Below are positions 14,715 through 18,655 of a stretch of DNA of 38,332 nucleotides, in pieces (the stretch's first letter is position 1; the number at the start of each line of letters is the position of its first letter). The DNA lies in NCBI GenBank assembly GCA_017415455.1, contig JAFQGS010000076.1, positions 1 to 38,332 on the forward strand. The letters are read 5' to 3'. Origin of the DNA: Prevotella sp. GTDB taxonomy: Bacteria; Bacteroidota; Bacteroidia; Bacteroidales; Bacteroidaceae. The notes beneath the pieces are model-generated. The model searched no databases, was not told where the DNA came from, and saw only the letters and a program-made list of their open reading frames with translations. Made by a program: the position numbers and the translations under genes.

Positions 14715-16232
14715 TTATTGATGCTGCTCTCTTAGAAGGTCGTTAACAGTCTTTACCGGGTTGAATGTAGAGAGCGGCACCTCAACGAATACTGTGTTCC
14801 AGTTGCTCATAGCACCATTCCACAAACCAGGCAACTCAAGTGCCTTCAGTTCTTTTCCGTTCTTGCTCTTTGAACTGATGAAGCCAGTTGACTTATCTAC
14901 AAATTCCGGCAGGTTGAATGCGTTGCCCTTGTAATCTCTCACGCCGCATACGAGGTCAACCGGATTGAAGTGTGTTCCTTCAGTGAACATCTTCATGTAT
15001 GCCTCATTAGACTTGTCTATCTGACTGCTCTCAAGAATTTGCAGGCTTATAGTGCCGTCGCTGTTATATGTGAGGAACGGACCGCCACCCGGCTCGCCTA
15101 CGTTCTTCACCATTCCGCAGACTCTTATAGGTCGGTTGAGTTTGCTTCTCAGATAAATAACGAGTTCAGCATCCTCAAGCTGCTTGATGTCGTTGTTGCG
15201 GCAGCAGAGATCTCTCTGCACAAAACGTATCATTTCCTCAAGCTTGTCGTGGTTATAGTTGCCTGAGTCAAGAACCTCAAGATAATCAAATGCTTTTTTC
15301 TGTAATGTAACGAGCACACCTGCAATAAGCTGCTTGTATGTCACTGTGTCGTCTTTCAGCTTGTCTGGCACTACGTTGTCGATGTTTTTGATGAAGATAA
15401 CATCCGCAGGAATCTCGTTAAGATTCTGGATAAGCGCTCCATGACCGCCTGGACGGAAGAGCAGTGAGCCGTCTTCGTTTCTGAAAGGTGTGTTGTCTGG
15501 ATTTGCGGCAACGGTGTCTGTGCTTGATTTCTGCTCAGAGAAAGAAACGTTGAAGCCTACTCCGAACTTCTCTCCGTATGCGCTCTTTGTGTCTTCCACC
15601 TTCTGCTCAAACAATGCTCTGTGCTCAGGACTAACGGTGAAATGTATATTTACCGCAGACTTACTCTCTGCATAGAGTGCTCCCTCCACAAGATGCTCCT
15701 CGATTGGAGTGCGTGATGAGTCACCATAGGTATGGAACTGAAGAAGTCCTTTTGGCAATTGTCCGTAGTTAAGGCCTTCCTTTTTGAGCATATTAGCGAC
15801 TACAGCCTTGTAATTGCCTTCTGCTATAAGTGTGTCAATATCCTTACCCTCACGCTTCAAGCACATGTCGTTTAAGAGACTGAAGAATGCAAAGTTGTGG
15901 ATATTGTCAAAATACATCTTCTCAAAATCTGTCTGAGGAGTGTCGTATTCTGCATCAAGAAAAGCAAACACGTCCTTAAACATACGGCTTGCCGCACCAC
16001 TTGCCGGTACGAACTTTACAATGTCATGGCCTTCGGCCTTGTAGCCTTCCCATGCGGCAATAAGTGCTGCCCTCTCCTCTTCTGACGGAGCGAGTATTCC
16101 ATGGCCTATACTTGCTGCAGCCTCGAGCTTAAGATATGGGAATCCGGTTTTAAACTCCTCAAGCTGTGCGTTAATTTGTGACTCGGAAATGCCTTTGTCG
16201 GCGATTTGCTTCAAATCTGTTTGTGATAACAT
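14715..16232 (-). CDS. DUF4301 family protein
   Basis: This 505-residue soluble protein is recognised as DUF4301, a family found mainly in Bacteroidota. It has no signal peptide or membrane segment. Conserved-looking stretches include FVPASGAASRMFK near the N-terminus, FRPGGHGALI in the middle and RVCGMVKNVGEPGGGPF towards the C-terminus. The glycine-rich phrases and the SGAASRM motif resemble nucleotide-sugar or phosphate-binding loops, so a nucleotidyltransferase-like fold is possible, but I do not assign a reaction. It is divergent from the RelA/SpoT homologue across 215 bp and ends at tandem hairpins. The family assignment is good. The function is unknown. Confidence 0.8.
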   Translation of the reverse strand: MLSQTDLKQIADKGISESQINAQLEEFKTGFPYLKLEAAASIGHGILAPSEEERAALIAAWEGYKAEGHDIVKFVPASGAASRMFKDVFAFLDAEYDTPQTDFEKMYFDNIHNFAFFSLLNDMCLKREGKDIDTLIAEGNYKAVVANMLKKEGLNYGQLPKGLLQFHTYGDSSRTPIEEHLVEGALYAESKSAVNIHFTVSPEHRALFEQKVEDTKSAYGEKFGVGFNVSFSEQKSSTDTVAANPDNTPFRNEDGSLLFRPGGHGALIQNLNEIPADVIFIKNIDNVVPDKLKDDTVTYKQLIAGVLVTLQKKAFDYLEVLDSGNYNHDKLEEMIRFVQRDLCCRNNDIKQLEDAELVIYLRSKLNRPIRVCGMVKNVGEPGGGPFLTYNSDGTISLQILESSQIDKSNEAYMKMFTEGTHFNPVDLVCGVRDYKGNAFNLPEFVDKSTGFISSKSKNGKELKALELPGLWNGAMSNWNTVFVEVPLSTFNPVKTVNDLLREQHQ

Positions 16233-16447: not shown

Positions 16448-17092
16448 ATGTCAAGGAATAATATATTCACGAAAGAGGAAAAAGCAGAGATTCTTAACTT
16501 GTTGACAAGTCTTCGCAATTCATTGGATGGATTAATAACACGCGAGGATGAGTTGAGAATATTCAACTATATATATAATGCCTACAAGGAAAAACGTATA
16601 CAGCGTGACATCTTTGGAACAAATCCTGTGCTCAGTTCCTTCCATACGGCTAAGATAGCCTTTGAGGAATTATCATTGAAGAGGGATGGTATAATAGCCA
16701 TAATGTTATATAGCGTCACAGACGACACGACGTCGGCAGAGATGATTGCCGAGGACTTCGGAACAGGTGTATCCAGAATAATAAGAGGTCTGACAAAGAT
16801 TCGTGACTTATACAAGAAAAATCCCGTTGTAGAGAGCGAGAACTTCAGAAATCTCCTGCTCTCATTTGCCGAGGATATGAGAGTGATTCTTATCATGCTT
16901 TCCGACCGGTTATGCCTGATGAGACAGATTAAGGACTCTGACAAGGTGGAAGCCAAGAGAAGAGTAAGCGAGGAGGCGAGTTATCTTTATGCACCACTGG
17001 CACATAAGTTAGGTTTGTACAAGGTTAAGAGCGAGCTTGAGGATCTTAGTCTGAAGTATCTGGAGCACGATGCCTATTACATGATAAAATAA
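16448..17092 (+). CDS. N-terminal half of RelA-like protein: degenerate HD hydrolase domain
   Basis: This 214-residue piece corresponds to the hydrolase domain of long RSH enzymes. The catalytic HD pair of SpoT-type hydrolases (in HDVVEDT-like sequence) is replaced by Y88-S89 in MLYSVTDDT. The second motif, normally ADRLHNMRT, reads SDRLCLMRQ with C156-L157 in place of His-Asn. Hydrolysis of (p)ppGpp is therefore not expected, and the protein belongs to the RelA-like synthetase-only type, for which this domain is regulatory. The piece ends exactly at the nonsense codon, just before the synthetase helices. Confidence 0.7.
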   Translation: MSRNNIFTKEEKAEILNLLTSLRNSLDGLITREDELRIFNYIYNAYKEKRIQRDIFGTNPVLSSFHTAKIAFEELSLKRDGIIAIMLYSVTDDTTSAEMIAEDFGTGVSRIIRGLTKIRDLYKKNPVVESENFRNLLLSFAEDMRVILIMLSDRLCLMRQIKDSDKVEAKRRVSEEASYLYAPLAHKLGLYKVKSELEDLSLKYLEHDAYYMIK

Positions 17093-17128
17093 AAGCTTAA
17101 TGAGACTAAGGCAAGCAGAGACAAATAT

Positions 17129-18655
17129 GTGGAAAACTTCATTAAGCCTATAGATGAGAAGCTGAAAGAGGCAGGACTTATATTCCACATGAAAGGCAGG
17201 ACAAAGAGTATTCATAGTATATGGCAAAAAATGAAAAAGCAGAAATGCGAATTTGAAGGTATATACGATTTGCTTGCCATAAGGATTATACTCGACTCCG
17301 ACTATGAATATGAGAAGATGCACTGCTGGCAGACCTTTGCCATCATAACAAATATGTATCAGCCTAATCCGAAAAGGATGAGAGACTGGCTTAGTGTTCC
17401 AAAGTCTAACGGGTATGAGAGCCTGCATATAACAGTCAAAGGTCCAGAAGGCAAATGGGTGGAGGTGCAGATCAGAACGCAACGAATGGATGAGATTGCC
17501 GAGAGAGGTCTGGCTGCGCACTGGAGATATAAGGGAATAAAGGGAGAGGGAGGCATGGATGAATGGCTCAACTCCATAAGACGGGCATTGGAAAGCACCG
17601 ACGATCTTGAGGTTATGGACAATTTCAAGATGGACTTATATGAGGATGAGATATTTGTCTTCACACCCAAAGGTGAGCTCATGCGTTTCCCGCAAGGTTC
17701 AACGGTACTGGACTTCGCATATAGGATACACTCAAATGTTGGCAACAAGTGTGTCGGGGCTAAGATTAACAACAAAATCGTAACTCTCAGGAATGTACTT
17801 AAAAGTGGTGACCAGATAGAGATTATAACTTCAAACAACCAAAAGCCCAAGAGAGAGTGGCTGAGCATGGTCAAGACAAGCAAGGCAAAGGCTAAAATAA
17901 GGCAGGCTCTTAAAGAAACGCAGATAAAAGACGGAGCCTTTGCTAAGGAAATGCTTGAGCGAAGAATGCGAAACAGGAAGATTGAGCTTGAAGAAAGCAG
18001 AGTGTCACATCTGATAAAGAAGCTCGGCTTTAAGGAAACAAGTGTGTTCTACAAGCAGATTGCCGACGGTACGCTGGACATGAACCATGTCATAGACACT
18101 TATATAGAGCTGAAGGAAAATGAAAACGCAAGTAATGCTGCTGTTGCACAACGAAGTGCGGAGGAGTTCACATTTTCAAATCCAAACGAAAAGATTACGG
18201 GCATAAGTACTGACGTGCTGGTTATTGACCATAATCTTAAAGGTGTTGACTATACACTGGCAAAATGCTGCAACCCGATATACGGAGATGATGTCTTCGG
18301 CTTTGTGACTGTCAGCGGAGGTATAAAGATTCACAGGTGCGACTGCCCCAATTCATCTGAAATGCACAAACGGTTTGGATATCGCATTGTGAAGGCAAAA
18401 TGGAGCGGTAAGGGAAACTCTCAATACTCAACGACAATAAAAGTTATCGGGAATGATGACATTGGCATAATAAACAATATCACCGGCATCATATCAAAAG
18501 AAGAGAAGATAATGATGAGAAGTATAAATATTGACAGCCATGACGGGCTTTTCAGCGGCAATATTGTGGTGAATGTTGAGGATACCAGCAGGCTTGAGCA
18601 GCTTCTGAAGAAGCTAAGAACAATAAAGGGCGTAAGACAGGTTATCAGGTTATGA
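17129..18655 (+). CDS. C-terminal half of RelA-like protein: (p)ppGpp synthetase, TGS, CC and ACT domains
   Basis: After the stop the same frame continues to a TGA at 18655. It keeps the synthetase signatures GRTKSIHSIWQKM, IYDLLAIRI, VPKSNGYESLH, VEVQIRTQRMDEIAE and AAHWRYK. Then come a TGS domain (DEIFVFTPKGE), the CC motif AKCCNPIYGDD with IHRCDCPNS, and a C-terminal ACT domain. If translated on its own it would need re-initiation: GTG at 17129 is the first plausible start, and the first in-frame ATG (17189) would cut off the first synthetase helices. The 3' end overlaps the convergent TetR gene by 11 bp. Free of the N-terminal domain, the activity could be lost or unregulated. Confidence 0.75.
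   Translation: MENFIKPIDEKLKEAGLIFHMKGRTKSIHSIWQKMKKQKCEFEGIYDLLAIRIILDSDYEYEKMHCWQTFAIITNMYQPNPKRMRDWLSVPKSNGYESLHITVKGPEGKWVEVQIRTQRMDEIAERGLAAHWRYKGIKGEGGMDEWLNSIRRALESTDDLEVMDNFKMDLYEDEIFVFTPKGELMRFPQGSTVLDFAYRIHSNVGNKCVGAKINNKIVTLRNVLKSGDQIEIITSNNQKPKREWLSMVKTSKAKAKIRQALKETQIKDGAFAKEMLERRMRNRKIELEESRVSHLIKKLGFKETSVFYKQIADGTLDMNHVIDTYIELKENENASNAAVAQRSAEEFTFSNPNEKITGISTDVLVIDHNLKGVDYTLAKCCNPIYGDDVFGFVTVSGGIKIHRCDCPNSSEMHKRFGYRIVKAKWSGKGNSQYSTTIKVIGNDDIGIINNITGIISKEEKIMMRSINIDSHDGLFSGNIVVNVEDTSRLEQLLKKLRTIKGVRQVIRL

Follow-up and report, generated by a model that had tools for sequence, protein, structure and literature searches.

Does a stop codon in an otherwise unbroken gene for a long RelA/SpoT homologue (RSH) tell us about the strain that carries it, or about the sequence in which it was read? 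We have explored this question in a stretch of 38,332 nucleotides from Prevotella sp. (the window; GenBank assembly GCA_017415455.1, contig JAFQGS010000076.1). From the ATG at 16448 to the end of its natural terminator TGA (18653-18655), the forward strand holds an RSH frame of 735 codons in which codon 215 is TAA (17090-17092, + strand; context DAYYMIK*KLNETK). A first-pass annotation of this DNA had described this stop as the only lesion of the frame, and frame reading, Pfam and TIGR00691 all bear this out: no second stop and no frameshift was found elsewhere in the 735 codons. The stop separates an N-terminal piece of 214 codons (16448-17089, + strand), which contains HD_4 (Pfam) at residues 52-190 and the first part of the synthetase domain, from a C-terminal piece of 520 codons (17093-18652, + strand) with the remaining synthetase domain and all the Pfam matches to RelA_SpoT, TGS, AH/RIS and ACT. 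The stop aside, the domain set of a long RSH (HD, synthetase, TGS and C-terminal ACT) is present by Pfam and TIGR00691. When read through with X at codon 215, the frame scores 524 bits against the NCBIfam model TIGR00691, compared with 108 bits for the N-terminal and 398 bits for the C-terminal piece, and the cut-off of 499 bits is passed by the read-through frame only. The intact domains and this read-through score argue that the frame is that of a genuine long RSH carrying one stop, and that its arrangement is not due to chance. In the present sequence the TAA keeps this frame from specifying the single continuous polypeptide of a long RSH; the decay beyond a first lesion that is expected of a pseudogene is also missing, the frame being otherwise unbroken over its 735 codons.

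The motifs of the frame indicate what kind of RSH the stop affects. The place that we take to be that of the usual HDxxED hydrolase motif reads YSVTDD, and the HD domain of the N-terminal piece is therefore probably degenerate and non-hydrolytic, whereas the stretches GRTKSIHSIWQKM, SNGYESLH and VEVQIRT, aligned to E. coli RelA, mark a putative synthetase. By its degenerate hydrolase motif, the window RSH belongs to a synthetase-only type as far as sequence can tell. The genome also encodes a second long RSH (contig C62), 36% identical to the first and unbroken, which keeps HDVVED at the same place and looks bifunctional. Loss of the hydrolase motif residues is likewise a property of the synthase-only Rel of Bacteroidia, represented by Pg_Rel (PGN_0465) and BT_0700 (PMC6994654). 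As described there, these proteins have HD, synthetase, TGS and ACT domains, miss the key hydrolase residues and occur alongside a second RSH with hydrolase residues (PMC6994654), which is the arrangement we found; this likeness concerns the domain state and the two-gene arrangement and not a direct sequence comparison. Unlike them, the window RSH has an in-frame stop at codon 215 in the present assembly. E. coli RelA matches the window RSH over residues 74-729 (phmmer, 1e-113 class), and its inactive pseudo-hydrolase domain regulates the synthetase (PMC8012599). The difference is that E. coli RelA is one chain, while the window frame is interrupted within the counterpart of the synthetase domain.

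Comparing the locus with relatives had been proposed as a check on the stop, and the outcome is clear: of the 122 distinct rows (137 loci) in our alignment of RSH orthologues, none has a stop in the column of codon 215, nor anywhere else in the aligned RSH. The first-pass annotation had given AAA and CAA as examples of a sense codon that reads might show, which does not agree with the relatives, since acidic residues prevail in this column (79 rows with E, 40 with D, 1 with N and 2 with a gap; 122 distinct rows). The search turned up no other genome of the species, the best RSH orthologue being 73% identical. In a survey of the genus, the C-terminal half of the RSH was matched in 348 of 398 genomes (E <= 1e-150), and open frames were read across these 348, many of the matches being short and lying at contig ends; 20 of the 50 genomes with no match were inspected, and some partial matches (e.g. 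G146, G147, G259, G350, G410) stayed outside the count of breaks. No stop at codon 215 was reported in this survey outside the window, and nearly all the surveyed orthologues are one chain. Partial matches aside, breaks other than contig ends and runs of N were seen in the window and in three further genomes only (G017, G214 and G234).

These three genomes differ in the nature of their lesions. The RSH of G017 (L034) is frameshifted near residue 229, where there is a short A run; that of G214 (L223) has two frameshifts, near 221 (an A run) and near 364; and that of G234 (L222) has a stop at 652, beyond which no ACT-domain match is seen. The frameshifts of G017 and G214, which are located in A runs or next to a missing base, may be errors too. 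Runs of N were seen in or near the RSH gene of three other genomes, G340 (L132), G347 (L224) and G205 (L227), the run of G340 being 10 bases long and mimicking a frameshift. A recurrent split in the region between HD and synthetase (residues 193-229 in G017, G340 and the window) had been considered, and was dropped because the break in G340 is a run of N and what remains are the frameshifts of G017 and G214 and the stop at 652 of G234.

Could the two pieces nevertheless be expressed separately? This possibility, raised by the first-pass annotation, would have the N-terminal piece end at the TAA and the C-terminal piece restart at GTG (Val228; 17129-17131, + strand), the earliest in-frame ATG, GTG or TTG past the stop, or at a later ATG, to give a split or deregulated synthetase. 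The domains are intact in both pieces, and E. coli offers a parallel in relA1, whose fragments complement each other. In relA1, IS2 is inserted between codons 85 and 86 and low (p)ppGpp synthesis is retained (PMC7563162), so a split RelA is able to keep some activity and the idea of two pieces is not absurd, only unsupported. Like relA1, the window RSH gene is of the long type and is broken within its N-terminal third; it differs in that relA1 is a verified insertion at codons 85/86, whereas here we have a single stop codon further downstream in an unverified draft. The position of this stop is unfavourable to two working pieces: by alignment count, codon 215 falls at residue 216 of E. coli RelA, within the synthetase domain, which spans residues 182-372 (PMC8012599), and on these boundaries a restart at 228 or 248 would leave the domain short of its first 45 or more residues. 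Furthermore, the start at 228 is not conserved. In all 120 distinct orthologue rows that have this column it is an isoleucine codon (ATC, ATA or ATT), so that GTG is confined to the window lineage among the rows examined; the next ATG, at codon 248, is ATG in 86 of the 120 rows. With the stop inside the synthetase domain, no conserved restart and almost all relatives encoding one chain, we consider two-piece expression very improbable.

The main evidence, in our view, comes from the state of other genes in the same assembly. The source assembly has 2.50 Mb in 135 contigs, is 91.4% complete with 0.06% contamination, and appears to be a metagenome assembly. We scanned 64 stretches of it (944,651 bases including 5,746 N; 38% of the genome) for stops flanked on both sides by coding sequence in the same frame, with no ATG within 12 codons. 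This gave 9 candidates in 695 accepted frames. An interrupted gene was supported in four of them: the window RSH, gyrB, a carboxynorspermidine synthase gene and a MORN-repeat gene. One candidate (L266) was rejected, as it comprises a thymidylate synthase gene and a dihydrofolate reductase gene, neighbours that are both whole. The other four of the nine, in L198, L234, L256 and L263, are candidate same-frame stops, and a candidate from a separate pass of the scan (L251) is without a known family; three of the sampled contigs (C18, C23 and C75) are N throughout.

The gyrB gene is the most telling of the four. It has a single in-frame TGA (contig C70, 16501-16503, - strand; L149) in a frame that is otherwise intact, and against TIGR01059 it scores 927 bits when read through with X, compared with 566 and 343 bits for its pieces. 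The column of the stop is Gly in 26 of 26 relatives, none of 254 other conserved positions departs, and an internal stop is absent from 25 of 26 other matching genomes, the exception (G014) having it at residue 647 of 657. No second copy of gyrB was found in the assembly, the sole other match being 38% identical, although one in the missing 9% or so of the genome is conceivable. As gyrB is an essential gene and is present once in the assembly, a true stop in it would hardly be viable, and since a mid-gene stop in a single-copy gyrB is hardly compatible with life, at least one of the stops in this assembly is best read as a sequence error. The other two genes present the same picture. The carboxynorspermidine synthase gene carries a single in-frame TGA (contig C15, 6389-6391, - strand; L245) inside Sacchrp_dh_C, a domain that scores 140 bits when read through and 57 and 77 bits in pieces; no internal stop was found in the gene of 21 other matching genomes, among which the stop column is variable (G 9, D 3, N 2, gap 7). 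The MORN-repeat gene carries a single in-frame TAG (contig C68, 1783-1785, - strand; L259), is continuous in relatives and has no internal stop in 11 other matching genomes. Isolated lesions of a lethal type are thus found in several intact genes of this assembly, and a shared cause, sequence error, would account for all four stops; under two-piece expression of the RSH, the stops of gyrB and the two other genes would be left needing a separate explanation.

In-frame stops in more than one gene might also be expected if TAA (and TGA) were read as sense at some places, through a changed code or a suppressor tRNA. The tRNAs of the assembly do not favour this: ARAGORN gave 32 anticodons in stretches with 39 tRNA places, and none is complementary to TAA, TAG or TGA. 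Nor do the stops in ordinary use, as the 28 main frames of the window terminate with TAA (17), TGA (7) and TAG (4), and all three stop types occur among the four interrupted genes. We regard recoding as the least probable of the explanations considered here, and next to negligible.

Returning to sequence error, its expected frequency can be estimated from the scan. With equal rates assumed for all substitutions, four stops in 945 kb correspond to about 1e-4 substitutions per base, and three or four stops to some 0.9-1.2 errors per 10,000 bases. About 1e-4 per base is an ordinary level of error for a low-coverage draft and would be enough to explain the RSH stop without any special cause. A control scan of a relative (G053; 288 frames in 400 kb) yielded a single candidate, made up of two whole genes, and thus no confirmed interruption where about 1.7 would be expected at the rate of our assembly; this difference is not significant and the control is weak. 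Stops of this kind, isolated, spread across unrelated intact genes and hitting one that is essential, resemble the consensus base errors of draft and metagenome assemblies, a likeness that at the TAA itself is extrapolated from the other genes. That the RSH frame has no further lesion is likewise consistent with an unbroken gene. Based on these results, with gyrB and two other intact genes carrying single in-frame stops, we infer that the TAA is most likely a single-base consensus error of the draft, to which we give a probability of roughly 70%; the stop is probably not a real feature. The gene in the living cell would then encode a long RSH of the synthetase-only type as one unbroken chain, which would work alongside the second, bifunctional-looking RSH of the same genome. 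Assembly error is thus the best supported of the three readings that the first-pass annotation had offered, a fresh mutation is possible, and two-piece expression is disfavoured by a stop inside the synthetase domain and by a GTG that is an Ile codon in relatives.

Under the fresh-mutation reading, a nonsense mutation that is both real and recent would have become fixed, or reached high frequency, in the sampled strain and would inactivate the synthetase-only RSH, while the second RSH keeps basal ppGpp metabolism. We consider this unlikely, if by no means negligible. The second long RSH would make such a loss tolerable in principle, and P. gingivalis offers a comparison: its synthase-only Rel and bifunctional RshB both feed ppGpp, the rel and rshB single mutants have no pigmentation phenotype, and ppGpp goes undetected in the double mutant only (PMC6994654). 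Rare RSH lesions do occur in the genus (G017, G214 and G234), but those of G017 and G214 are possibly errors themselves, and a like stop in gyrB would be impossible in a viable cell, barring another copy. The lack of a second disabling change also means that a real mutation must be young, with neutral divergence bounded at about 1% (assuming 0.1 disabling indels per substitution). The first-pass annotation had taken the absence of secondary decay as a sign that the event is very recent or that the halves are still used; this reasoning is sound, but it has no power against a sequence error, which predicts the same absence, and so lack of decay is unable to separate the readings.

The divergence of the window RSH bears on the same point and gives mixed results. 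Among 238 positions with at least 98% conservation, the protein departs from its relatives at 9, where the leave-one-out median is 1 and 9 is reached by 2 of 119 relatives; these departures are mostly conservative. Its divergence ratio to the Rel-B paralogue is 1.47, compared with 1.18 +/- 0.12 for 20 relatives, which places it first of 21; relative to the neighbouring malic enzyme it also ranks first (of 24), and this excess speaks for a real mutation. Relative to the DUF4301 protein (Pfam; 14715-16232, - strand), the upstream neighbour, which adjoins the RSH gene in 55 of 80 relative loci (coverage at least 85% in 54 of these), the window ranks 22 of 50, so that no excess is seen, which speaks against the nonsense reading. 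With an excess against two of three controls the results are mixed, and we kept these rates out of the verdict. Rather than decay, the excess points to a working protein that changes faster, or to a mixed signal, because neutral decay with such an excess would bring further stops. The nine departures, together with the excess against two controls, could hint at a real relaxation of this RSH. The raised divergence might also be seen as adaptation to a split, if the stop were real and the pseudo-hydrolase fragment and a GTG-restarted synthetase fragment associated in trans, forming a natural split alarmone synthetase; we find this as far-fetched as two-piece expression in general.

Our preferred reading, a consensus error, carries a caution for work on this assembly: intact genes in it, gyrB included, carry isolated stops, and "splits" of a single gene read from it need read support before they are interpreted. 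If the stop were real, it would mean that a gut-type member of the Bacteroidales can lose or split its synthetase-only RSH and retain the bifunctional one. As Rel and RshB of P. gingivalis both supply ppGpp (PMC6994654), such a loss would, by analogy across genera, bring a modest weakening, and not a loss, of the stringent response.
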